A DNA stretch of 42,982 nucleotides, from NCBI GenBank assembly GCA_902535155.1, contig CACASB010000007.1, positions 1-42,982 of the forward strand, in the 5' to 3' direction. Source of the DNA: an uncultured Pelagibacteraceae bacterium (GTDB lineage Bacteria > Pseudomonadota > Alphaproteobacteria > Pelagibacterales > Pelagibacteraceae). Of this stretch, positions 11,937 to 40,633 are shown piece by piece; the first letter of the stretch is position 1; each line of letters starts with the position of its first letter. The position numbers were made by a program, and so were the translations under genes. Below the pieces are notes generated by a model. It was not told the DNA's origin. It did no database searches and worked only from the letters and a program-made list of their open reading frames with translations.

Positions 11937-12395
11937 CTATTTATTCTTATCTTTTTGAGTGAACGGTAACCATTTTTCAAAAGCTGATTTATCAGGTCCA
12001 TCATACTTTATTTCATATGAGTTTGTTCTAGTTAAAACTTCGATACCCTTGGAAAATATGAATATAAACATTAAAATAAATATCAATGACATAATTTTAA
12101 AAGGGTTGAAATTTTTAGTTTTAAAAACACTCACGGATTGCGCTTCAGCGTTATGAAATTGTTTAAAAGTATAATAAACAGCAAATATAATACCGGCATG
12201 AGCTAAAAAAACTCCAGCCCATCCGAATATAAAAGTCGTATATGAAAATATATATAAGCTAAATACTACCGACCAAATAAAACTTAAAACTAACAAAATT
12301 TGTAATCTAACTGTTTTTGGTAGTGCTCTTAAATCATTTTTACTATCGTCGAATAGTATATTTGCAGAATCAATCATGAATCTCTTAAGTGACAT
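11937..12395 (-). CDS. Uncharacterised membrane protein, three TM segments
   Basis: A 152-residue protein that I do not recognise. Predicted membrane segments are at about residues 29-51 (LQILLVLSFIWSVVFSLYIF), 55-75 (FIFGWAGVFLAHAGIIFAVY) and 99-117 (IMSLIFILMFIFIFS). Before the first segment is a polar stretch (DSKNDLRALPKTVR), and the C-terminal 35 residues are polar and likely soluble. It lies 36 bases upstream of the psiE-like gene and 30 bases downstream of the YczE-type gene on the same strand, so it probably shares their transcript. The hydrophobic pattern and codon use fit a real gene. Confidence 0.72.
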   Translation of the reverse strand: MSLKRFMIDSANILFDDSKNDLRALPKTVRLQILLVLSFIWSVVFSLYIFSYTTFIFGWAGVFLAHAGIIFAVYYTFKQFHNAEAQSVSVFKTKNFNPFKIMSLIFILMFIFIFSKGIEVLTRTNSYEIKYDGPDKSAFEKWLPFTQKDKNK

Positions 12396-12425
12396 ACTAC
12401 TATTTAAATATTTTAAACGAAAAAA

Positions 12426-13073
12426 TCAATTAAAGAATTTTCCTACTAAATATAATCCTAAAGCTACTGCAGGTCCTATTCCAAAAGCAAAAAGTAATGT
12501 GCCAATTCCCACAGTGCCTCCTAAATACCATCCTATTGATACAACCGAAATTTCTAAAAAGGCTCTTACAGATGCTATTGGAAAATTTGTTTTTCTTTGT
12601 AGGCCTGTCATAAGACCGTCTCTTGGTCCAGGTCCTAAGTTAGCAATTAAATAAAAACCAGTGCCCAATCCTACCAATAAAACTGATGCCACGGCTAATA
12701 ATAGTTGATTAAAATATATTGCTGGAGTAGGAACAAAAATTATACATACATCAATCATCGTAGCTATTATCAAAATATTAAATAAAGTACCAAGACCTGG
12801 TTTTTGTTTAAGAAAAATCCATAAAGATAAAACGCAAACACTCACTATGAAAGTAACTAGGCCTACAGATATATCTGTATTAAGAGATATTCCTTGAGCT
12901 AAAACACTCCACGGAGATGCACCTGTAAATGAAACTATAAGCAAACCTTCACCAATACCAAATAACGTTAATCCAAAAATTAAGAAAAAAATGGTTACCA
13001 GTTTTGGTCTTAAGTTAAATGGGTTTTTAGAACTCCATGATTTTTTGGGAATTTTTTTTATAGTTAAAAACAT
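12426..13073 (-). CDS. YczE/YyaS/YitT-type integral membrane protein
   Basis: A 215-residue membrane protein with about five to six hydrophobic segments. It carries the features of the YczE family: GLTLFGIGEGLLIVSFTGAS, then PWSVLAQGIS, and the conserved segment LGPGPRDGLMTGLQRKT followed by VRAFLEISVVSIGWYLGG and GIGTLLFAFGIGP. The transported substrate or role is unknown. It is first of the three-gene leftward membrane set. Only 32 bases separate it from the divergent DUF6134 gene, so both promoters must overlap. Confidence 0.85.
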   Translation of the reverse strand: MFLTIKKIPKKSWSSKNPFNLRPKLVTIFFLIFGLTLFGIGEGLLIVSFTGASPWSVLAQGISLNTDISVGLVTFIVSVCVLSLWIFLKQKPGLGTLFNILIIATMIDVCIIFVPTPAIYFNQLLLAVASVLLVGLGTGFYLIANLGPGPRDGLMTGLQRKTNFPIASVRAFLEISVVSIGWYLGGTVGIGTLLFAFGIGPAVALGLYLVGKFFN

Positions 13074-13105
13074 AATTAATTATTAGAATATATTTAAATC
13101 TTAAA

Positions 13106-13807
13106 ATGAAAATAATTACTAAAACATTACTTCTTACCATAATAATAATATTTTTCCCCCTCAAATCATTTGGGCATGTAGAACACTATGAAAAAGTTGA
13201 GAGATTTCTGATGGAAATTTTTAAAGATGGAAAAAAAATTGGTTTTAACAATTATACATTTAATAGAAATAACAAAAATTTAGTAATAGATAACAAGATA
13301 GAATTTAATGTTTCTATATTAGGATTGAATGCTTTTTCAATTAAAGGAACTAGCAAAGAAGTTTATAAAAATAATAAACTTGTTAGTTTTAAATCAGATA
13401 CTATTCAGAATAAAAAAGTGAAATTTGTTGATTTATATTTAGATGAAAGTAAAGAAGGTTATTTTATTAGAGGGTCCTCTTATACCGGTAAGGTTGACTT
13501 AGATATAGTGATTGGTGGATGGTGGAATCACAAAATAATCCAAACCGGAAAAAACATAAGCCCAATTTCTGGAAGTATATACAAGCAAACCATAAATTTT
13601 ATTAAAAAGGAAAAAATAAACTTATATGGTAAAGATTTCGAAACTAGGCATTTTATTATTTTGTCAAAAAAACACGATAAAGAAGATAGTGAAGAACGCA
13701 GATATGATGTGTGGTTAGATACAAATAATAATCATATTTTAAAAATGACATACTCAAAATATGGTTTATGGGAATATAAATTAAAACAAGTCATTTATTC
13801 AAAATAA
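13106..13807 (+). CDS. DUF6134-like secreted protein
   Basis: A 233-residue protein with an N-terminal signal peptide (TKTLLLTIIIIFFPLKSFG, cleavage likely after about residue 23). The mature part looks like one beta-rich domain: FLMEIFKDGKKIGFNNYTF near the start, a central T-x-x-N-K-K-V-K-F stretch, and YDVWLDTNNNHILKMTYSKY near the end. This order (short strands, 'G-x-x-I-G' opening, 'W-Y/L-D-x-x-x' close) fits DUF6134, a periplasmic family of unknown function. Its stop is four bases from the stop of the convergent coiled-coil gene. Confidence 0.72.
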   Translation: MKIITKTLLLTIIIIFFPLKSFGHVEHYEKVERFLMEIFKDGKKIGFNNYTFNRNNKNLVIDNKIEFNVSILGLNAFSIKGTSKEVYKNNKLVSFKSDTIQNKKVKFVDLYLDESKEGYFIRGSSYTGKVDLDIVIGGWWNHKIIQTGKNISPISGSIYKQTINFIKKEKINLYGKDFETRHFIILSKKHDKEDSEERRYDVWLDTNNNHILKMTYSKYGLWEYKLKQVIYSK

Positions 13808-13811
13808 TTAT

Positions 13812-14951
13812 TTAGTTTGTCTTGCTTCTCTCTCTAGAAATCAGTTGGGTTAATGAATCTACCATTAAGTCTGATGCGGTAAAGATATCTGTCGACTTAA
13901 ATTCACGGGAATGATTTTTCTCTGGATTACTTTTATCCTCTATAACTATATCACCACTTAGGGAATTATCTTTAATGTATATTAAGATTAACCATTCTTC
14001 ATCTTTAGAGTCATCTTTTTTGATAAAAATTTCACCTGTTTCAAATCTTCTATCTATGCATCTAAAAATAGACATTTCTCTTGTTAGATGTCTTTTATTT
14101 AATTGAAAAACTAAACTGCTAGCACTCCTGTAAAAACTTTCTAAAGAATTTTCAATTTTTTGTCTGGAGACTATGTAATCATGCTCTTTCTTTAAAAGTG
14201 CGTCTCTATCATCTTTATCAGAAGTTTTTATACCTAATGCTTCTACCCTTTCTCTAATTTTCTGGTCTCTAATTAATCTGTATTTTTCTTTAAGTTTATC
14301 AATCCTATCTTGCAAACCAGCATAATCTTCTCTTTGCTCTTTGAGTGAAATTTTTTCTAATTTCTCTAATTCTTTTATTTCTCTAACTCTAAATTTCTCT
14401 ATCTGTTTTTGTAACTTTATTTCCTCTAAAAATTTTCTTTGTCTTTCTGATTGTTCTTGTCTAAGAATTGCTTGTTCTTTTCTAAGGAAATTTTTTAAAT
14501 CTTTAGATCTTTGCTTTTCAAGCAAAATTTCTCCTTTTAATTGCTTTTGTTTAAGCTTTATTTGTAAATCTGCAGTTTCTAATTCCTTTTGTTTTTCTCG
14601 TTGTTTAATTTTTTGTTCCTTCTCATATGCCTCAATTTTTAATCTCTGCTTTTCCTCTTTTATCAACAATTTGTATTGATCGATTTTAGTATCAATAAAA
14701 TCAAAAAAACTTTTTATTTTTTCTTCTAGATTAATCTTGAAATTATTTTTTATATTTATTTTTATATTTTCCTGGAGCCTTAACAAATTTACAAGAAAGT
14801 GATTTTTTTTTGTAATTTTTTTACTTACATTTTTTTTTCTACTTAAAACTTTTGTTTTTCTTTTTTTTTTTAAAATTTTTCTTTTAACAAAGCTCTTTTT
14901 TAATTTTTTCTTTTTTATATTCTTAATCTTTTTTTTCTTTTTTTTTTTCAT
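13812..14951 (-). CDS. Lys-rich coiled-coil protein of unknown function
   Basis: A 379-residue protein that I do not recognise. Three parts are visible. Residues 1-50 are extremely basic (starting MKKKKKKKIKNIKKKK) and could bind nucleic acid or acidic membrane lipid. About residues 75-240 are a long charged helix rich in Lys, Glu, Gln and Arg, without Pro, almost surely coiled coil. About residues 255-379 look globular, with FRCIDRRFETGEIFI, EEWLILIYIKDNSLSGDI and TASDLMVDSLTQLI. There is no signal peptide. An 11-A run directly follows the start codon. It is convergent with the DUF6134 gene. The compositional bias could mislead any homology search. Confidence 0.75.
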   Translation of the reverse strand: MKKKKKKKIKNIKKKKLKKSFVKRKILKKKRKTKVLSRKKNVSKKITKKNHFLVNLLRLQENIKINIKNNFKINLEEKIKSFFDFIDTKIDQYKLLIKEEKQRLKIEAYEKEQKIKQREKQKELETADLQIKLKQKQLKGEILLEKQRSKDLKNFLRKEQAILRQEQSERQRKFLEEIKLQKQIEKFRVREIKELEKLEKISLKEQREDYAGLQDRIDKLKEKYRLIRDQKIRERVEALGIKTSDKDDRDALLKKEHDYIVSRQKIENSLESFYRSASSLVFQLNKRHLTREMSIFRCIDRRFETGEIFIKKDDSKDEEWLILIYIKDNSLSGDIVIEDKSNPEKNHSREFKSTDIFTASDLMVDSLTQLISRERSKTN

Positions 14952-15089
14952 CAGTTAGATATGATGACTTAACAGCAAATAACTAATAAATATAGTAACT
15001 TGTAATTGAAAATTTTTCTATTCTTTAATTATATTTAAAATAACAGCTTAAAATTAATCCATTATATACTTTCACAACCTGAAAGATAC
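14952..15089. other. Intergenic stretch upstream of the coiled-coil gene
   Basis: A spacer of 138 bases between two leftward genes. It must hold the promoter of the coiled-coil gene. I find no convincing hairpin terminator, RNA gene or small ORF. Confidence 0.4.
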
Positions 15090-15974
15090 TTAGGCCGCAA
15101 CATTTTTTTTTGCTGAGAAATCTAATGCTCTAAGTTTATTAAATAGTATCTTTTCGTCCTTAGGATCTAGCAATGACAGAGTAGGTAAAATATTAGCATA
15201 ATCGCTATCTTTTTCCTTCAAAAAAGAATGTAAACCAGAAATTAAATTAAATTGATCAAACGTTTTTCTAACCTCACACAATTTATTGTTTGCAGTCTGT
15301 GGTTCATTGTTGAAAAAGTCATCATAAACTTTTCTTGATAGTGCTGCTGTCACATTGCAAGTTGCTGTTATAATTCCAGAACATCCAATTTCTAAAGCAG
15401 ATAATAATTTTAGTTCTGATCCTGGGAGAATTGAAAAATCTTTAATTTTAAGATCTTGATACAAATTATAAGAACTATCTTTAACCCCAATAATATTTTT
15501 TGGAAAAATTTTGGCTAATTCTTGAACACATTTTGTAGAAAATTTGTATCCACACAGTTTTTCGAAATTATAAAGTATTATCTTTGATTCTGGTACTGAA
15601 TTAACCAACTTCGTATAGTAGTTAATCACTTCTTTGTCTCCATATTTATAATATGCGGGAGGCATTACTAAAAATTTTTTAAATCCTAGGTTAACTGAAA
15701 CCTTCATGAGATTTATTGTATCCAACAATGAATTTAATCCACAACCTATGATAAATTTCTCTTTATTTTTGTTTTTACTCAAATATGTAACCATTTGAAT
15801 TTTTTCGGCTAGAGAAACTAGTTGTGCTTGGCCTGTGCTTCCAAATATGACTACACCATGACAACCATCTTCAATAATTTTTTCACAATGATTTGTTGTT
15901 TTTTTAATATTTAACGACATATCATCATTAAGAACTGAAACTGATGCCGCATAAATGCCTTTAATTTCAACCAT
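15090..15974 (-). CDS. Dihydrodipicolinate synthase / N-acetylneuraminate lyase family aldolase
   Basis: A class I (Schiff-base) TIM-barrel aldolase of 294 residues. The Schiff-base Lys is in IIGVKDSS (about K165), and the conserved Tyr is in IILYNFEKLCG (about Y135). The substrate loop is FGSTGQAQLVSLAEK, in place of the G-T-T-G-E of true DapA, and the family's Y-N-x-P is replaced by Y-N-F-E. These changes argue against lysine-pathway DapA and for a relative acting on another 2-oxo acid or sugar acid. No lysine genes are nearby. It is divergent from the GT9 gene, with 50 bases between starts. Confidence 0.85.
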   Translation of the reverse strand: MVEIKGIYAASVSVLNDDMSLNIKKTTNHCEKIIEDGCHGVVIFGSTGQAQLVSLAEKIQMVTYLSKNKNKEKFIIGCGLNSLLDTINLMKVSVNLGFKKFLVMPPAYYKYGDKEVINYYTKLVNSVPESKIILYNFEKLCGYKFSTKCVQELAKIFPKNIIGVKDSSYNLYQDLKIKDFSILPGSELKLLSALEIGCSGIITATCNVTAALSRKVYDDFFNNEPQTANNKLCEVRKTFDQFNLISGLHSFLKEKDSDYANILPTLSLLDPKDEKILFNKLRALDFSAKKNVAA

Positions 15975-16024
15975 AAAATAAGCTTATCTCTAAAGAAAAA
16001 TTTAGTAAAGATATTAGTTAATTA

Positions 16025-30656: not shown

Positions 30657-32869
<2,213 letters not shown>

Positions 32870-33760
32870 TTACTTTTTTGGTTTCAAAACAAGCCATCGC
32901 ATCGATTTTGGCCTTCCCTCTGACATCATCAAATATTTCTCGTCATCACTAAATTTATCCAAGATTTTAAAATTGAAAGGATTTTTGGAAACATCATTCA
33001 GAATTTCAATATTATGGTGTTTTTTAATCTTTTGCAAAAAACTTTTAATCTTCATTTTATTAGTTACATTAAATGGATGCTCTTCTACGATAAAAGTACT
33101 TTGAGAGAATTTTTTACAAAATTTATCATCAAATAAATAATACTCTTTTCCCTCAATATCTAATAAAAAAAATAGATTTCTTGGATTAATATTTTTTAAA
33201 ATATTTGACAACGATAAAAAGTTAGCATCTCCATAAATGCTAATTTTATTATGCAAGTTGTTAATTAGAGAATTTTTTTTTAAAATTTCTCTACTTTTTT
33301 TATTTAACTCAAATGCAATTCCTTTTTTAAAAATTTTTTTTTTTAGTAAACTAATAATATGATATCCTTCTGCTGCTCCCAAATCGACAAAATGACTAAA
33401 TTTTTTTTTTTTAGCTAAATTAATTATTTTATTTTGAATATGTGACTCATAAATACCTAGGTATTTTGAGGAAAAATCAGTATTTGACCAACCATATGAA
33501 CTTAAGATTTTTGTACCAGCATACGGACCATACAAAACTTTATTATTTGAAATCTTAGAGATTTCTTTACCTAGAGTATTTTTTTTTTTATCTATAAAAT
33601 TTGATAACCCTGTTTTTTTAAAATTTTTATTAACAAAGTAAAAATAAACACCATCAAAACCATTTATATTATAAATTGACTTATATTTACTGATTTTTTT
33701 TCTAAACCATAATAAAATGAAAATTATTACAATAATGCCAAAAAAATATTCAAATAACAT
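32870..33760 (-). CDS. Membrane-anchored FkbM-like SAM methyltransferase
   Basis: A 296-residue protein with one N-terminal membrane segment (about residues 3-19), a linker region (GFDGVYFYFVNKNF), and then a class I SAM fold. SAM motif I is FVDLGAAEGYHIISLL (about 124-139), and LLDIEGKEYYLF (about 199-210) matches the D-x-E-G-x-E motif of FkbM-type methyltransferases. SEGRPKSMRWLVLKP closes the protein. The target could be a sugar or peptide in surface glycans; this is inferred only from the neighbourhood. It is divergent from the DUF4956 gene with 77 bases between them, and has the same orientation as gyrB downstream. Confidence 0.78.
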   Translation of the reverse strand: MLFEYFFGIIVIIFILLWFRKKISKYKSIYNINGFDGVYFYFVNKNFKKTGLSNFIDKKKNTLGKEISKISNNKVLYGPYAGTKILSSYGWSNTDFSSKYLGIYESHIQNKIINLAKKKKFSHFVDLGAAEGYHIISLLKKKIFKKGIAFELNKKSREILKKNSLINNLHNKISIYGDANFLSLSNILKNINPRNLFFLLDIEGKEYYLFDDKFCKKFSQSTFIVEEHPFNVTNKMKIKSFLQKIKKHHNIEILNDVSKNPFNFKILDKFSDDEKYLMMSEGRPKSMRWLVLKPKK

Positions 33761-33837: not shown

Positions 33838-34458
33838 ATGGAAGATTTAATTTCGATAATTATAATGCTAATAAGTGGTTATGCTATTAGATACGCTTTA
33901 ATATTTTCAGGTCAAATGTGGGCAAAATCTTTTGCTCAAACTGTTTCTTTTTTTATTTTACCAATAATAACATTTGTGATCACTAAAACTATCTATGGTA
34001 ATATAGCTTTGTCATTGGGAATGATTGGGGCATTATCTATTGTAAGATTCAGACATCCTGTAAAAAGTGCATTAGAATTAATTATATATTTTGACTTAAT
34101 AACAATTGGAATTGCAGCTAGCGTGAAAAATAACTATGCAATAATTTTAAGCATTTTAACAGTAGTTATTATAATTGCTTTAAAAGTTTTTAATAATATT
34201 CAAAAGAAAAATGATAATAAATCATTTTATAATATTTCGTTTAATGAGGGATTAGAACTTAATCAAATAGAGATAATTTCTTCAAAAAAAATTGATTTAA
34301 TTGAAAACAATAATAATCTTAAGTCAGTATTGAATGATAATGAAAATAAAGACTACGTTTATAGATTAGTATTTGAAGACAAAACTGAACTACAAAATTT
34401 TAAAAATGAAATTGAAAATATAGATGGTCTGAAGAAAATTGATGTCAACTATATCTAA
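33838..34458 (+). CDS. DUF4956 membrane protein
   Basis: A 206-residue protein. The N-terminal half has three to four membrane segments and the family's hallmark GMIGALSIVRFRHPVKSALE, followed by LIIYFDLITIGIAASV. The C-terminal half (about residues 125-206) is soluble and mixed alpha/beta. DUF4956 has no proven function. From memory, DUF4956 genes are often found beside VTC-domain and CotH-kinase genes in bacteria, which is exactly the context here. Its end overlaps the next gene by 17 bases, so the two are translationally coupled. Confidence 0.88.
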   Translation: MEDLISIIIMLISGYAIRYALIFSGQMWAKSFAQTVSFFILPIITFVITKTIYGNIALSLGMIGALSIVRFRHPVKSALELIIYFDLITIGIAASVKNNYAIILSILTVVIIIALKVFNNIQKKNDNKSFYNISFNEGLELNQIEIISSKKIDLIENNNNLKSVLNDNENKDYVYRLVFEDKTELQNFKNEIENIDGLKKIDVNYI

Positions 34459-36772
34459 AACTTTAATAAGCTTTGCCATTTTTTTAAATCTTTTCAATTT
34501 TAATTCAGCAAAAAGTAAAGAATACAAAAAATGCAATCACTTTGATTCTTTAAATTATAACAAATCCGTTAATTACATTCCTGTCGATGAAATCAACATC
34601 AAGATAGATGAATACAAAAAGTGGCAAATTAATAATATTAGGATTTTAACAAATAATTCACATTTAATTCCAGATAAATTCAAAAAAAAATTTAACAGCA
34701 CAGTGATAATTAAATATCAAAATGGCTTATTTTGTAAAATCAAAGCAAGGATAAGAACACATGGAGATCTTAAAGACCATATTATTTATAAAGATGGAAG
34801 AGTATTTCAAAGCTTAGATGTTGATCTTAAAGACGGACACATAAATAATATTACAAAATTTAAATTATTTTTGGGTAAGACTAGAGGGGTAGATGAGGAC
34901 GAAATATTTATGACAGAATTATTGAGAGAATTTGATTTTATCTCACCAAGAACTCAGCTTGTAACAGTGAATGTCAACGGAATAAAAAATAAAATGATAT
35001 TCCAAGAAAAGTCTTCAAAAGAATTATTGGAATTTCATAAAAGAAGGGAGGGACCAATATTAGAGGGTGATGAAAAATATATGATGAAATTTTCGTCTAA
35101 AGTTAAAAATTATAGTGGAATTAATTGGCCTGAAATTATAAGAGTATCTGAACTTGGCACAAAAATTCAACTTGCAAAAGTAACAAATTCTAAATGGGCA
35201 GTAAAAAATGATATTTTTAAAAAGAATGCTTTTCTCGCATTAGATAAACTCAATTTCGCTTATTTGGTATATATAAATAGTTTTCAAGATGAAAATAATG
35301 AATACTCATTTTTAGATTATAATTTAGATAATAATATTCTATCACAGGGAACTAAAAGAAATCTTCATAAGCTTAATGTGTTTAATAATTTAATTTTAGC
35401 TGCAAATGGAAATCATGCTTTATATGTCCACAACAGAAAATTCTATTGGAATTCTGAGGAAAATTACTTTGAGCCTATATATTATGATGGTGAGTTTAAT
35501 CTAAAAAAAGTTCAAAAAAAACTTAACTTTCCCATAAGTGAAAATTATGAAGACTCATTAAAGGAATTAAGAATTTTGATCCTACAATTGGATTTAAAAA
35601 AATTCCAAAAAAACTTGAAATCTAAAAATCTTTTATATACCAAAAAAAAGATTGAGTCTAAATTGAAAAGAATTTTAGTAAATATTGAGGAAATAGAAAA
35701 ATTATTAAATCAGAAGAACAAAGATGAAATTCGATATAATAATGAAAGTTACCAAAACAAGAAACTGGAAAAAAAATATTTAGATAATTTTAAAATACAA
35801 AATATTAAAGCAAAGTTCATACAATATGAAGTTGCTAAAGATGTTTTTAAAATTTGTAATAGCGACGTATCAAAATGTGAAAAAGTTTTTGATATAAATT
35901 TAAACGATCAAAGAAAACTTTTAGAGTCAGAACTAAAATTAAATAAAGATAATATAGAATATCTAAAATTTATAGATGATTATTCGAATAAATATCAAAG
36001 AATTATTTTAAATGACGAGAACTTTGATAATGTAACTTTCTATCATAATGAAGGAATAATTTATAATTACGACGTCAAAAATAAGATATTTGAAATAAAT
36101 CAAAAAAAATTGTCAGGAAGAAGTTTTTTTTTAAGAGGAAAAATAAACGGTGTTAAGATTATATATAATGGTAAGTTTGAGTATTTTAATAATAAGATAG
36201 AAAAAAGAATAGACTTAAATAATTTAACTGGATGTTTAAGCTTTATAAAAACAAACTTTACAAAAACCTCTATCAGTTCATTTAATGCTACTTGTGAGGA
36301 TGGTATAAATATTATTAAAAGTTCAGGTGAATTAAAACAGATTACATCAAATAATTCCCTGTATGATGCTGTAGATGTAGATTTTTCAAAATTACGTATC
36401 AAAGAAGTGAAAGTTAAAAATGCTTTGAACGATTGTTTAGATTTTTCTTTTGGAGATTATGATGTATCAAATTCAAAATTAAGTTTATGTGGAGATAAGG
36501 CTATATCAGTTGGAGAAAAATCCCATGCCAACTTTAATTATATTGAGCTTCAAAATGCCAAGATTGGTGTAGCGTCCAAAGATTCTTCTAGTGTATATAT
36601 AGAAAATTCTAAAATTTCAAAAGTTGAGAATTGTTTTGCAAGTTATAGAAAAAAACAAGAGTTTGATGGTGGACTTATTAAAGTAAAATTTTCAAATTGT
36701 GAAACATTTTCTAAAAATTTATATTTTGACAAAGACTCAAAAATTGAAATTATCAAAAACGAAAATACATAA
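34442..36772 (+). CDS. Exported CotH-like kinase with beta-helix-like C-terminus
   Basis: A 776-residue protein from the ATG at 34442 (a TTG three bases upstream is less likely). A signal peptide is visible (KTLISFAIFLNLFNFNSA). About residues 85-355 look like a CotH-type atypical kinase domain: ARIRTHGD, a long 'K-F-K-L-F-L-G-K-T-R-G' strand, VTVNVNGIKNKMIFQEKSS, NHALYVHNRKFYWNSE and EPIYYDGEFN (D349), in the order known for CotH. A charged helical linker follows (about 360-480). The C-terminus (about 560-770) has short repeating strands (DYDVSNSKLSLCGDKAISVG, SKISKVENCFASYRK) suggesting a right-handed beta-helix. The kinase call rests on motif order and the gene context, not on a search. 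Confidence 0.7.
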   Translation: MSTISKTLISFAIFLNLFNFNSAKSKEYKKCNHFDSLNYNKSVNYIPVDEINIKIDEYKKWQINNIRILTNNSHLIPDKFKKKFNSTVIIKYQNGLFCKIKARIRTHGDLKDHIIYKDGRVFQSLDVDLKDGHINNITKFKLFLGKTRGVDEDEIFMTELLREFDFISPRTQLVTVNVNGIKNKMIFQEKSSKELLEFHKRREGPILEGDEKYMMKFSSKVKNYSGINWPEIIRVSELGTKIQLAKVTNSKWAVKNDIFKKNAFLALDKLNFAYLVYINSFQDENNEYSFLDYNLDNNILSQGTKRNLHKLNVFNNLILAANGNHALYVHNRKFYWNSEENYFEPIYYDGEFNLKKVQKKLNFPISENYEDSLKELRILILQLDLKKFQKNLKSKNLLYTKKKIESKLKRILVNIEEIEKLLNQKNKDEIRYNNESYQNKKLEKKYLDNFKIQNIKAKFIQYEVAKDVFKICNSDVSKCEKVFDINLNDQRKLLESELKLNKDNIEYLKFIDDYSNKYQRIILNDENFDNVTFYHNEGIIYNYDVKNKIFEINQKKLSGRSFFLRGKINGVKIIYNGKFEYFNNKIEKRIDLNNLTGCLSFIKTNFTKTSISSFNATCEDGINIIKSSGELKQITSNNSLYDAVDVDFSKLRIKEVKVKNALNDCLDFSFGDYDVSNSKLSLCGDKAISVGEKSHANFNYIELQNAKIGVASKDSSSVYIENSKISKVENCFASYRKKQEFDGGLIKVKFSNCETFSKNLYFDKDSKIEIIKNENT

Positions 36773-36777
36773 ATTTT

Positions 36778-37371
36778 ATGAGCTATAGAATAGAAAAAAA
36801 ATTATTTATTCAAAAAGAAAATTTTTTTGAATTTAAAAAAAAAATAATAGAAAAAGGTGCAAAAAAAATTTTTAAAGATAGAGAAATTAATAGCTTATAT
36901 TTTGACAATTTTAAAAAAGAGATGTTTCGTGATTCTTTAGAAGGGTTGACTCCAAGAAAAAAGATAAGGATAAGAAATTATCCTAAAGATAATAGCAAAC
37001 AATTATTATTTGAGACTAAAATATCGAGTGTCGAGGGAAGATTTAAAACTAACGAATTGATAAATGAAAAATACTTTAGCGCTATTACAAGAAACGGAAT
37101 TTTTGATAGCAAATATGGCATTTGTAAACCGATTTTAAATGTTAGCTATAACAGAGAATATTTTAAAATGGGCGATGTTAGAATAACTTTGGATAGTAAT
37201 ATTTTTTATGAATTATATAAGGGTAGATTTATTAAAAAAGACTTAAGAATTGTTGCGGAACTTAAAACATCAATTAATAAAAATTTAGATGAGTTAGCAG
37301 AAATTTACCCGTTTCAAGAAATTAGGTTTTCAAAATATTGCAATGGAATAGAACTTTTTAACAGGGGATAA
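36778..37371 (+). CDS. VTC-domain protein (triphosphate tunnel / polyphosphate polymerase type)
   Basis: A 197-residue protein of the VTC family, the triphosphate-tunnel fold of polyphosphate polymerases. The alternating charged residues of the tunnel are visible: YRIEKKLFI (E6, K7/K8), NSLYFDN, RKKIRIRNY (R64, R66), LFETKIS (E79, K81), VRITLDSNI (R135, D139) and VAELKTS (E161, K163). It has no signal or membrane segment. Length is slightly below the usual bacterial VTC protein. It starts five bases after the CotH-like gene, as the third gene of the set. Polymerase activity is plausible from these residues but not shown. Confidence 0.87.
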   Translation: MSYRIEKKLFIQKENFFEFKKKIIEKGAKKIFKDREINSLYFDNFKKEMFRDSLEGLTPRKKIRIRNYPKDNSKQLLFETKISSVEGRFKTNELINEKYFSAITRNGIFDSKYGICKPILNVSYNREYFKMGDVRITLDSNIFYELYKGRFIKKDLRIVAELKTSINKNLDELAEIYPFQEIRFSKYCNGIELFNRG

Positions 37372-37372
37372 A

Positions 37373-38347
37373 ATGAATGTTGCATTAGTGGGATCTAATT
37401 TTGCTTTAAAAGGCTATTTACCTGTAATAAAAAAAATAAGACAGCTGAAGTTGAAAATTTTATGTAATAGAAAAATTTCAAAGTCAAAACACATTTTATC
37501 AAAATTATCAGATCCGATTCATGAAAAAAATTGGAAAAATATTTTTATTAATGACATAGATTTGATTATACTTGCAGTTCCCCCAAAACTTCAAAATCAG
37601 ATATTAAATTATAATTTAAAGTTTAAAAAAAAAATATTATTCGAAAAACCGATCTCACAAAATTTAGTTAGTTCGAAAAAAATTATTCAATCTCTTAAAA
37701 GAAAAAAAATAAAGTCAGATATAAATTTAACTTTTTTAAATCACGAATTATTTCAAAAAACAAAGAATATAATCAAAAACAAAAAATTAGGTAAAGTTCT
37801 TAGTTACGAAGTTTTATGGAATTTTAAAAGTTTTGATTTAGAAAATAAGATAAAAAGCTGGAAAACTGTTGAGCATCAAGGAGGGGGAATTAAAAATATA
37901 TTTCTAACTCACGTTTTTTCTTACTGTGAATTCTTATTTGGTAAAGGTAAAGTAATAGATTATAATTTAAAGATCTCAAACTTTAAAAATATTAAGTACA
38001 AAAAAAGCATTTACTGCATCCTAAAAAATAAAAATGGTGTAACCGGGAAAATTACATTATTTGTTAAAAAAAGTGGTTTTCAAAATCATAGGATAGTAAT
38101 AAAATGTGAAAAAGGCTATATTCGACTGTTTACTAAGTCAAAAGATTGGACTAAAGACTTTATTTTAGAGACATACAATATTAAATCTAAAATAAAAAAA
38201 ATCATAAAGGAAAAAAAACTTCAAAATTTTAAAGATGGAAGATCAAATCAAATATTTACTATGATTAAGAATTTTTTAAAAAAAAGTGATTATTCAAAAA
38301 TAGACTACTGTTTGAATGCTGAAAAATTAAATAAAACTATTAATTAA
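37373..38347 (+). CDS. Gfo/Idh/MocA-family oxidoreductase
   Basis: A 324-residue NAD(P)-dependent sugar oxidoreductase. The dinucleotide fold is MNVALVGSNFALKGYLPVI; the first G-x-G-x-x-G is degenerate (V-G-S-N-F-A). The family's E-K-P motif is ILFEKPIS (E91-P93), where the Lys is the catalytic acid/base. GGGIKNIFLTHVFSYCEFLFG, with a His in the usual place, follows. It likely oxidises or dehydrates a nucleotide sugar. It lies one base after the VTC gene, so it may share that transcript, and is followed by sugar C-methyltransferase and epimerase genes. Confidence 0.85.
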   Translation: MNVALVGSNFALKGYLPVIKKIRQLKLKILCNRKISKSKHILSKLSDPIHEKNWKNIFINDIDLIILAVPPKLQNQILNYNLKFKKKILFEKPISQNLVSSKKIIQSLKRKKIKSDINLTFLNHELFQKTKNIIKNKKLGKVLSYEVLWNFKSFDLENKIKSWKTVEHQGGGIKNIFLTHVFSYCEFLFGKGKVIDYNLKISNFKNIKYKKSIYCILKNKNGVTGKITLFVKKSGFQNHRIVIKCEKGYIRLFTKSKDWTKDFILETYNIKSKIKKIIKEKKLQNFKDGRSNQIFTMIKNFLKKSDYSKIDYCLNAEKLNKTIN

Positions 38348-38351
38348 TATT

Positions 38352-39602
38352 ATGGACAAACATAACTTTGAACCTGGAAAGATTAATAAATGTCAAATAT
38401 GTAATTCCATTAATTTGATCGAAGTGATGAAGCTTGGAGATCAACCACTTGCAAACTCTTTGATTAAAGATATTTCTGATGAAGGTTTGGTTCAAAAATT
38501 TCCAGTAAATATAATAAGGTGTAAAGATTGTGGTCTCCTACAAATTGATTATATCGTTGATCAAAAAAAAGTTTATCATCCAGACTACCCTTATTTACCA
38601 GGAATTACGCCAACAGTTGATAAAGAGCAAAAAGATTTATCTGACTACTTATGTAAATCACTTAATTTAAAAAAAAACGATTTAGTTGTTGATATAGGTA
38701 GTAATGATGGAAGTTTGTTAAGATATTTTAAAGAACAAGGATTGAAGACGTTGGGTGTCGAACCTACAAACATCGCACAAGTAGCAAATGAAAAAGGTAT
38801 TGATACTATCCAGTCTTTTTTTAATAAAGAAATAACTGATGAAATAAAATCTAAATACGGGAAAGCTAAACTGTTAACAAGCACGAATGTTTTTGCTCAC
38901 ATGTCTACTTTGGGGGATGTTATGGATGGCATAACTAATTTAATTGATGATGATGGATATTATGCTTTTGAAAATCATTACATAATGGAAATTTTAGATA
39001 AATTACAATATGATACTTTTTATCATGAACACCTTCGCACTTATTCTCTTTTATCTTTGATAAAATTATTTGAAATGTATAATTTGTGTTTATTTGATGC
39101 ACAAATAGTTTCAAGATATGGCGGTAGTATAAGGTGTATTGTGTCAAAAAAAGAAAATAAGAAGACAGAAAGACTAGTAGAATTATTAAAAAAAGAGAAA
39201 GATGCTTTAATTGATAATTGCGAACAAACTTATAAAAATTTTAAAAATAATGTAGAAAAATCCAGAACTGATTTGATAAATTTGATAACTAAGTTAAAGT
39301 CAGATGGAAAAACCATTGTTGCAAAATCTTGTCCTGCAAGAGCTGTGGTATTACTAAGTTATTGTGGTCTAAATAATAAACATTTGGATTATGTGGCAGA
39401 ACAACCTACATCCTTAAAACTTAATTATTACATACCAGGAACAAATTTGAAAATTATTGAAGATGGCATCTTAACAAAAGAAGAACCGGACTATATTTTA
39501 CTTTTAGCATGGCATTTAAGTCAACCGATAATTGATAAATGGAAAAAGCGAGGAATTAAATCTAAGTTTATTGTGCCTTTACCTGAGGTTAAAATTATAT
39601 GA
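38352..39602 (+). CDS. Sugar C-methyltransferase (class I SAM, zinc-containing)
   Basis: A 416-residue protein with the three-part layout of NDP-sugar C-methyltransferases (for example TcaB9). The N-terminal zinc region has C14, C17 (CQICNS) and C57, C60 (CKDCG). The SAM domain has VVDIGSNDGSLLRYF (112-126) and HEHLRTYSL with a likely catalytic His. The C-terminal part (GLNNKHLDYVAEQPTSLKLN, then LLAWHL) matches the 'C-methyltransferase C-terminal' domain. It would add a methyl group to a deoxy-keto sugar in surface glycan synthesis. It overlaps the next gene by four bases. Confidence 0.88.
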   Translation: MDKHNFEPGKINKCQICNSINLIEVMKLGDQPLANSLIKDISDEGLVQKFPVNIIRCKDCGLLQIDYIVDQKKVYHPDYPYLPGITPTVDKEQKDLSDYLCKSLNLKKNDLVVDIGSNDGSLLRYFKEQGLKTLGVEPTNIAQVANEKGIDTIQSFFNKEITDEIKSKYGKAKLLTSTNVFAHMSTLGDVMDGITNLIDDDGYYAFENHYIMEILDKLQYDTFYHEHLRTYSLLSLIKLFEMYNLCLFDAQIVSRYGGSIRCIVSKKENKKTERLVELLKKEKDALIDNCEQTYKNFKNNVEKSRTDLINLITKLKSDGKTIVAKSCPARAVVLLSYCGLNNKHLDYVAEQPTSLKLNYYIPGTNLKIIEDGILTKEEPDYILLLAWHLSQPIIDKWKKRGIKSKFIVPLPEVKII

Positions 39603-40633
39603 ATGAAAAATATTACTTACACTCAGATATAGAAGAAATTGTAAATAATTTAAAAAAATACCATAGCAAGTTTTACGGAAAAAAATTTTTTATAACAGGT
39701 GCAAATGGATTTTTAGGTAAATATTTTATAAAAGTGATTACAGAAATTAACAAGAAAACAAATAATAAAATCAAGATACTGGCTAATGATATCAAATTCG
39801 ATAATTGTGAAATATTTAAAGACAAAAATGTAAAGTTGATAAAAAAAGATATTAATAAAATAAAAAAAATTAATTACAAATGTAATTATATCCTTCACGC
39901 AGCGGGCATTCCAAGTCCAAAAAATTATTACAAAAAACCCATTGAAACAATTTTCACAAGTATCACATCTACAAAAAACCTTTTGGAATATTCCTCTAAA
40001 ATTAAATCAAAATTTATATTTTTTAGCAGTAGTGAAATTTACGGAAATCCAGATAAAAAAAATATACCTACAAAAGAAACATATAATGGAAATGTCTCAT
40101 CTATAGAGGACAGATCTTGTTATGATGAAGGTAAAAGAGTTGGAGAAACTTTGTGTTACTTTTATAAAATTAAACAAAAAGTAGATATATGTATTTTTAG
40201 ACCATTTAACGTTTTTGGGCCTGGTATGCCAAGAAATGACTACAGAGTATTTCCAAGATTTTTTAGCTCAATTAAAGATAAAAAACCAATTACGATTTTT
40301 AAAAATGGAAATCAAACAAGAACTTTCTGTTATGTAACTGACGCAATTACTGCAATGTTCATAGTGACTCTGGAAGGTAAGAATTTTGTATATAACATAG
40401 GCAATAACAAACCTGAATTAAATATGAATACACTGCATAAAATCATGGAGGCTTCTCTAAAAAAGAAAATTAAAGCAATTAATATTAGCTACCCTAAAAA
40501 TTATCCGCAAGTAGAACCACAAAGAAGATGTCCTGATATAGGTAAGCTTATTAAAGAATTTAATTATAAAAATAAAGTTGGTATTAATGATGCAATAATT
40601 AGATTCCATTATTGGACTTCAAGGTATTACTAA
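39599..40633 (+). CDS. NAD-dependent nucleotide-sugar epimerase/dehydratase (SDR)
   Basis: A 344-residue extended SDR enzyme. The NAD loop is FITGANGFLGKY (G34, G37, G40). The active site has FSSSEIYGN (Ser) and CYDEGKRVGET (Y175, K179), and FRPFNVFGPGMPRNDYRVFP is the substrate loop. RTFCYVTDAI and PQRRCPDIGKL are typical C-terminal marks. The pattern is nearest to UDP-glucuronate decarboxylase or dTDP-glucose dehydratase relatives; the exact substrate cannot be read. It is coupled to the upstream gene through ATGA and is convergent with the isomerase gene (four-base overlap at the stops). Confidence 0.88.
   Translation: MNEKYYLHSDIEEIVNNLKKYHSKFYGKKFFITGANGFLGKYFIKVITEINKKTNNKIKILANDIKFDNCEIFKDKNVKLIKKDINKIKKINYKCNYILHAAGIPSPKNYYKKPIETIFTSITSTKNLLEYSSKIKSKFIFFSSSEIYGNPDKKNIPTKETYNGNVSSIEDRSCYDEGKRVGETLCYFYKIKQKVDICIFRPFNVFGPGMPRNDYRVFPRFFSSIKDKKPITIFKNGNQTRTFCYVTDAITAMFIVTLEGKNFVYNIGNNKPELNMNTLHKIMEASLKKKIKAINISYPKNYPQVEPQRRCPDIGKLIKEFNYKNKVGINDAIIRFHYWTSRYY

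Follow-up and report, generated by a model that had tools for sequence, protein, structure and literature searches.

A candidate polyphosphate-export and envelope-phosphorylation locus with DUF4956, CotH-like and VTC proteins in a Pelagibacteraceae bacterium

In yeast, polyphosphate synthesis by the VTC complex is coupled to translocation via a basic channel, as set out in the accessible part of PMC9911596. In bacteria, genes for polymerases of this kind have been described close to genes for CotH, the spore-coat kinase. Gram-positive Pel clusters are adjoined by cotH, poly-phosphate polymerase, DUF4956 and DUF4832 genes, for which regulation by phosphorylation was suggested (available portion of PMC7112168), and a Clostridium perfringens locus carries VTC or polyphosphate polymerase and CotH genes together with a glycosyltransferase gene (PMC2879425 and PMC11677781, in the sections available). 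Here we analyze a 42,982-nucleotide stretch of DNA (the "window") from an uncultured Pelagibacteraceae bacterium, contig 7 of a genome of 36 contigs (0.88 Mb, 75% complete), in which the genes for a DUF4956 membrane protein, an exported CotH-like protein with a beta-helix tail and a VTC protein lie side by side. Its streamlining, its gene content and named Pelagibacteraceae relatives in the genome collection point to Pelagibacterales. The bare trio is already in print for the Gram-positive Pel clusters; its partner in some relatives, an exported family I pyrophosphatase, is new here.

We tentatively interpret the trio as a membrane-coupled system for polyphosphate export and envelope phosphorylation, a reading that, taken as a whole, we consider possible though somewhat short of probable. 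Synthesis by VTC and export by DUF4956 rest on homology, and the use of polyphosphate as a phosphoryl donor is a step that we infer. In its most specific form, which we place on the unlikely side, the proposal is that bacteria of many phyla phosphorylate glycans outside the cell by a CotH-like enzyme with a His in its active site, using polyphosphate instead of ATP; the chain would be made by VTC and threaded through DUF4956, and the exported pyrophosphatase would remove the remaining two-phosphate stub.

The locus shares with yeast VTC (Vtc1/Vtc3/Vtc4) the tunnel polymerase domain with its key residues and a membrane-protein partner. In contrast to yeast, the bacterial genes are split, the VTC protein is without SPX, exported partners are added and DUF4956 takes the place of the Vtc1-type membrane part, to which no relation was detected. 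The middle protein has remote sequence and fold kinship to CotH (5jda/5jd9) and keeps the metal-site Asp; it differs in having His for the catalytic Asp, an RxxGDxxDH-type motif and the beta-helix tail, and in being exported and encoded next to VTC and DUF4956. The accessory genes of the Gram-positive Pel clusters, cotH-PPP-DUF4956(-DUF4832), where PPP is the poly-phosphate polymerase, represent the same three families beside an exopolysaccharide system (PMC7112168, as far as accessible). The Gram-positive sets that we compared are two Bacillota plasmid trios rather than Pel-cluster proteins; their CotH is shorter and retains the catalytic Asp, and no pyrophosphatase is present among their annotated neighbors. 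The gene set of C. perfringens NELoc-2 (VTC/"tubulin"/CotH/glycosyltransferase) is likewise the same, by a glycosyltransferase, and differs from the window in its duplicated VTC and membrane genes (PMC2879425, available part). Its order resembles that on a Planococcus plasmid, and its "tubulin" is probably DUF4956, judging from size and place. Elsewhere, a DUF4956 gene is merely listed in expression tables (PMC6848847 and PMC10434189, in the parts available). The open-access literature, which leaves out most subscription papers and preprints, held nothing on the link to an exported pyrophosphatase or on a His active site; the available portion of a review of microbial pyrophosphatases (PMC11210485) yielded nothing about family I enzymes that are exported.

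The three genes and their products

The following features of the trio are referred to below.
33838..34458, plus strand: DUF4956 membrane protein, 206 aa (PF16316; predicted model, hydropathy peaks, conservation in 43 sequences)
34442..36772, plus strand: exported CotH-like and beta-helix protein, 776 aa (CotH profile match, fold match, residue counts in the catalytic column, beta-helix)
34442..34513, plus strand: N-terminal hydrophobic export signal of this middle protein, about residues 1-24 (start MSTISKTLISFAIFLNLFNFNSAKSK, judged by eye)
36230..36709, plus strand: tail of the middle protein, a right-handed beta-helix of about residues 597-756 (AlphaFold2 model; likeness to alginate epimerases, lyases and tailspikes)
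36778..37371, plus strand: VTC triphosphate-tunnel protein, 197 aa, putative polyphosphate polymerase (PF09359; Vtc2/Vtc3/Vtc4 profile matches; tunnel residues)

The first two genes overlap by 17 nt, and a gap of 5 nt separates the second from the third. The coordinates, lengths and spacing given in a first-pass annotation of the window are right; the annotation also named the DUF4956 hallmark and the tunnel residues discussed below, both of which are present.

The VTC protein matches PF09359 with 90.4 bits (curated cut-off 23), the sole domain above a Pfam cut-off in its 197 residues; an SPX domain is absent. A profile of 14 VTC sequences matches yeast Vtc2, Vtc4 and Vtc3 (best E 8e-12). The eight residues named earlier (R64, R66, E79, K81, R135, D139, E161 and K163), together with R126 and K186, are invariant in all 14 aligned sequences, that of the window included. 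R64, R66 and K81 align with what are presumably R264, R266 and K281 of Vtc4 (numbers counted along the printed chain), while E161 corresponds to Vtc4 E426 by motif only, the position lying outside the printed alignment. On this homology we propose that the VTC protein is a polyphosphate polymerase. The earlier idea of a split version of VTC, with the membrane part and the triphosphate-tunnel polymerase as separate proteins, is upheld as a homology reading.

The DUF4956 protein scores 36 bits against PF16316 (curated cut-off 30.6), and GALSIVRFRHP begins at residue 64. The predicted model, with a mean confidence (pLDDT) of 80, has five helices (residues 2-24, 32-51, 55-72, 78-95 and 99-121) followed by a C-terminal domain that is ferredoxin/ACT-like. 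Across 43 DUF4956 sequences the block ALSLGxxGALSIVRFRxxxK is nearly invariant, with R70, R72 and K76 present in all 43. By the helix count, this basic block and the soluble C-terminal domain would share one side of the membrane, presumably the cytoplasmic one. Structure comparison gave mostly matches to the ACT-like domain, with a middling best Z of 6.9; the lack of a structural membrane relative is not evidence of a new fold. As a separate observation, five DUF4956 open reading frames from Anaerolineae and one Acidimicrobiia (L062:879-2462, L063, L065, L072 and L079; L and G numbers denote loci and genomes in our set) have an N-terminal extension of about 200-300 residues, which in L062 shows a weak likeness to a 3-keto-disaccharide hydrolase domain (20.7 bits, under the cut-off).

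The ACT-like fold, middling as the match is, would fit a regulatory system in which this domain senses a metabolite, VTC is a tripolyphosphatase or nucleotide enzyme, and the CotH-like protein phosphorylates proteins and so controls polysaccharide assembly. The phosphorylation control suggested for the Gram-positive Pel clusters (PMC7112168, accessible text) would agree with such a system. It leaves unexplained, however, the exported phosphoanhydride and phosphoester hydrolases described below, and we consider it the least probable of the alternatives. The kinase would also have to work outside the membrane, where ATP is not expected.

For the middle protein, the evidence for CotH kinship comes from its family and from its predicted fold. 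By itself the protein matches no Pfam family at E≤1, so that membership of PF08757 is not reached by its own sequence, and single-sequence searches (Pfam and NCBIfam at E≤1, PHROGs, phmmer against the PDB) returned nothing useful. A profile of 14 family members matches CotH 5jd9 with an E value of 4.9e-7 (runner-up 0.035), and Foldseek ranks CotH 5jda and 5jd9 first against the predicted model (E 9e-8 and 1.2e-7, probability 1.00). This fold match is coarse, with root-mean-square deviations of 9.3 and 14.9 and TM-scores over the CotH length of 0.51 and 0.47, and the list from a second structure comparison (VIA) is filled by beta-helices, with no CotH in it. Moreover, relatives in the same genus (L031) and in other Pseudomonadota (L046, L049 and L050) pass the Pfam CotH cut-off, L046 being above the beta-helix cut-off as well. 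Judged from profile and model, the kinship is real but remote.

The model of the middle protein has a mean pLDDT of 65.6; confidence is good for the beta-helix and over much of the kinase-like part but poor elsewhere. For residues 601-750 the block means are 82-97, and the tail aligns with solved right-handed beta-helices (alginate epimerases, polysaccharide lyases and tailspikes) at Z ~20, although this is a common fold. Both the beta-helix tail and the outside location had been suggested in the first-pass annotation and are borne out here, the latter by the N-terminal segment as judged by eye.

The same annotation had called the protein CotH-type and kinase-like. The first part stands at the level of family profile and fold; the kinase label does not, owing to the catalytic residue. 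Proteins longer than 400 aa with E<1e-20, selected from 86 matches, gave an alignment of 75 (window included) plus 5jd9, in which we equated columns with D228 and D251 of CotH from the 23-residue spacing in 5jd9 and the mutants in the available part of PMC7821199, where changing D228 to Gln inactivates CotH. The catalytic-Asp column holds His in 61 proteins, Asp in four, another residue in eight and a gap in two; at the metal site, 60 proteins have Asp, 10 have Glu, three have Gly and two have a gap. The window protein has H325 and D349 at these positions. In a deeper alignment H325 is kept in 42 of 45 sequences, and G108, H113, S124, F140, R148 and E189 in all 45. Ordinary ATP-dependent kinase chemistry cannot be assumed with His in this column. 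We also considered a decaying kinase and rejected it, since the His and the other residues are kept across phyla; the His looks like a conserved replacement. In L057 (11410-14546), VTC is followed by another CotH gene, this one canonical and with chitobiase-C and Fn3-associated domains, and by an O-antigen-ligase-like gene; related genes recur in L061, L064 and L068.

Distribution of the trio and its exported hydrolase partners

A VTC gene was found in 16 of 121 near genomes, the window's own included and all from one genus; many of the other 105 are incomplete. Fourteen of these 16 have the whole trio in one place, the two others (L020 and L027) being cut by a contig end; in L023 the contig ends inside VTC. 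Order varies: VTC is inverted in L021 and precedes the CotH-like gene in L031. In the phylum, 8 of 398 genomes (own included) have DUF4956. A scan of a species-level genome collection, seeded by a tighter DUF4956 alignment, gave 587 confirmed matches, of which the best 80 are listed; 43 of these loci are well-flanked, with 3.5 kb or more on either side. VTC lies no further than 8 kb from DUF4956 in 37 of the well-flanked loci, a CotH-like gene in 37 and both in 32, with one or both missing in 11. The survey agrees with the first-pass expectation that the genes are conserved together, wherever VTC occurs. Among the best 80 loci the complete trio occurs in 12 phylum-level groups, as judged from record titles, and Bacillota plasmids add a thirteenth: plasmid searches returned two Bacillota records for DUF4956 and nothing for the middle protein. 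In Myxococcota, Delongbacteria, Neomarinimicrobiota and one deltaproteobacterial record, no VTC was found in the fetched stretch. The co-occurrence of the three genes is far beyond chance, though patchy.

DUF4956-VTC pairs also occur without a CotH-like neighbor. They adjoin a PHO4 phosphate transporter gene in L042 and L043 (the latter also with a phytase-like gene), an HlyD gene in L047, and a gene for a short outer-membrane-like protein in L167-L169. In Bacteroides thetaiotaomicron, a DUF4956 gene is listed alongside a DUF2490 gene (PMC10434189, in the part available). Given the PHO4, phytase-like, HlyD and outer-membrane-like neighbors, the pair is tied to phosphate and export, which suggests that the CotH-like protein is an outside client of it.

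These pairs, together with the loss of the CotH catalytic Asp, also fit a reading in which polyphosphate itself is exported, to serve as a polymer on the surface or as a phosphate store in the periplasm; the CotH-like protein would then be a non-kinase glycan anchor, and the hydrolases would recover phosphate. Yeast VTC provides a precedent in its export into the lumen (PMC9911596, accessible part). Such an anchor would, however, seem to need less than the CotH-like residue set conserved across phyla, and a dedicated pyrophosphatase would fit pyrophosphate (PPi) release better than degradation of long chains. We consider this reading unlikely, though it is the most serious alternative to polyphosphate as a phosphoryl donor.

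In 4 of the 16 Pelagibacterales VTC loci, the trio is joined by an exported family I pyrophosphatase (PF00719, 100.8-115.7 bits, cut-off 23.5). All nine aligned pyrophosphatases carry GDGD(P/A)xD, which we take to be the family I signature. In L019 and L030 the gene lies between the CotH-like gene and VTC and encodes an N-terminal hydrophobic segment, and in L025 it is upstream of DUF4956. In L018, the only such fusion found, the enzyme follows the CotH-like protein as the C-terminal part of one chain; the sole signal is at the N-terminus of this chain, and the pyrophosphatase part has none in front of it. Of the 16 VTC genomes, 14 were searched for PF00719: only these four match, each with one copy, that of the trio. 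The membrane H+-pumping pyrophosphatase is a separate gene, matched in 8 of the 14, among them the single-contig genome G012, which has the trio and no ppk1 match.

A pyrophosphatase gene also lies within 10 kb in 5 of the best 80 loci, all from Bacteroidota and all with a lipobox-like N-terminus as judged by eye. It is part of the gene run in L097, L120 and L126, and is ~6 kb and ~8.5 kb from DUF4956 in L116 and L090. In a tree of 48 rows, the exported pyrophosphatases of Pelagibacterales and Bacteroidota form one clade (support 100/99), separate from the sampled cytoplasmic enzymes of Bacteroidota and Alphaproteobacteria; L018, L019 and L090 are long-branched, and the order within the clade is not settled. 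The possibility that these are cytoplasmic pyrophosphatases nearby by accident was rejected: by eye, their N-termini look like export signals or lipoboxes, and in the tree they have a clade of their own. In three further flavobacterial loci (L160, L161 and L162), DUF4956, VTC, CotH-like, metallophosphoesterase and pyrophosphatase genes stand side by side, with the phosphoesterase on the opposite strand in L162. A calcineurin-like metallophosphoesterase is found within 8 kb in 19 of the 80 loci, most with a hydrophobic or lipobox-like N-terminus. The earlier interpretation of the locus contained neither of these exported enzymes nor the CotH-less pairs.

The repeated pairing with a pyrophosphatase and the one fusion would also be expected if the CotH-like protein were a PPi-releasing transferase using an exported activated donor, with VTC and DUF4956 supplying or regulating the donor and the pyrophosphatase pulling the reaction. 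His in place of the catalytic Asp would suit such an enzyme, and pseudokinases such as SelO and SidJ transfer AMP or other groups. Against this, we know of no nucleotide source outside the inner membrane, and no exported-donor gene stood out in the neighbor clusters, most of which are unannotated. A transferase of this kind appears improbable to us.

The association was also followed in 149 genomes from the taxonomic family to which the Dokdonia genome belongs. Twelve of them encode a close relative of the Dokdonia enzyme, in four cases within 7 kb of a DUF4956 gene. When looser relatives are counted, five of seven trio genomes have the enzyme versus 11 of 142 others (Fisher p = 1.4e-4), or five of eight versus 11 of 141 (p = 3.5e-4) when the trio genomes are taken to include G535, whose VTC-DUF4956 pair lies near a canonical CotH gene. 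The table is approximate: G578 and G634 are included by identity only, in G578 the enzyme and the trio are 54 kb apart, the copy in G620 seems to be broken, and five uninspected DUF4956 genomes (G576, G579, G588, G597 and G656) are placed among the others. Among 16 Bacteroidota trio genomes, five of them picked for a nearby enzyme, PF00719 is matched in 14. A lone lipoprotein-like pyrophosphatase gene lies between topA- and miaB-like genes in four flavobacterial loci (L153-L156), while L161 has the trio with both hydrolases at this same site; gain or loss of the trio beside a standing pyrophosphatase has hence happened.

A proposed pathway and its genetic context

In the reading of the trio as an export and phosphorylation system, cytoplasmic VTC would polymerize ATP-derived phosphate in its tunnel, as expected from homology. 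Oligomeric DUF4956 would take the nascent chain and conduct it across the inner membrane in the manner of the transmembrane helices of Vtc1/3/4 in yeast, with R70, R72 and K76 on the soluble-domain face. On the outside, with no ATP to be expected there, the CotH-like domain, with His in the catalytic-Asp place and its beta-helix holding the glycan, would use polyphosphate as phosphoryl donor to modify an envelope or capsular glycan (or a protein). The exported pyrophosphatase, where present, would cut the last PPi, and the secreted metallophosphoesterase may trim or reverse the modification.

Several results weigh against this reading. Comparison of the DUF4956 profile and model with the PDB gave no likeness to Vtc1 and no convincing membrane relative, and no VTC-DUF4956 fusion is present among 114 DUF4956 frames. 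His for the catalytic Asp leaves phosphotransfer by the CotH-like protein a proposal. A ppk1 match is present in 3 of 14 Pelagibacterales genomes. The window contains neither a pyrophosphatase nor a metallophosphoesterase, its own genome (75% complete) gave no PF00719 match, and none of the 16 Pelagibacterales loci has a metallophosphoesterase; in view of the counts above (4 of 16 and 5 of 80 for the pyrophosphatase), both enzymes are optional. In 6 of the 11 Bacteroidota trio genomes that were not picked for a nearby enzyme, the exported-clade enzyme lies outside the fetched locus. Eight of the 12 genomes with a close enzyme in the family sample are without a DUF4956 hit: the exported pyrophosphatase also occurs without the trio, and as a strict trio marker it was rejected.

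If polyphosphate does act as donor, it would be an export currency for cell-surface modification, with DUF4956 a bacterial polyphosphate conduit, and the system would offer a general answer to the missing ATP outside the membrane. The pyrophosphate-cleaving enzyme exported by some relatives hints at the chemistry of a widespread system and gives a first mechanistic handle on a trio seen in 13 phylum-level groups (the best 80 of 587 loci plus the Bacillota plasmids). Given the fusion and the operon copies, the idea can be tested directly using four purified proteins.

After VTC, the same-strand run goes on into three nucleotide-sugar genes, with gaps of 1, 4 and -4 nt.
37373..38347, plus strand: Gfo/Idh/MocA sugar dehydrogenase-like gene (PF01408, PF02894, PF22725), 1 nt after VTC
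38352..39602, plus strand: nucleoside diphosphate (NDP)-sugar C-methyltransferase-like gene (Methyltransf_13/14; PF08484 124 bits, PF08421 52.8 bits), after a 4-nt gap
39599..40633, plus strand: NAD-dependent nucleotide-sugar epimerase/dehydratase gene (PF01370, 141 bits), overlapping the preceding gene by 4 nt
Because of this tight spacing, the trio is probably co-transcribed with these genes. The trio running straight into them, taken with a beta-helix like those of polysaccharide enzymes, makes a surface glycan the probable acceptor in the window. The glycan link drawn in the first-pass annotation is hence retained; of its overall interpretation, the split VTC, the outside location, the glycan link and the conservation hold, and the kinase label is dropped. 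Promoter- and terminator-like sites around the run are no more numerous than in shuffled sequence, and an Rfam scan around it gave no match at the gathering score. On the other side of the trio, a divergent FkbM-like methyltransferase gene (32870-33760; 18.3 bits, under the NCBIfam cut-off of 37.7) stands between it and a gyrB-like open reading frame (30657-32717, named by eye).

The position of the trio differs between clades. In a second Pelagibacterales clade (L026, L029, L030, L118, L123 and L124), it directly follows ilvC-like genes, with leuA-like and mreB-like genes after it in L026, L030 and L124 (all named by eye). The trio thus recurs at one chromosomal site there, which differs from the glycan islands found at several loci of the window's clade. 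In L160, cysN-, cysD-, cysC- and cysQ-like genes (11962-16001, by eye) lie upstream of the trio operon of this flavobacterial locus and on its strand; these sulfate-activation-like genes hint at a phosphate-sulfate link in glycan modification. On a Kordiimonadaceae contig (L059), two complete trios and a partial third one occupy ~11.5 kb.

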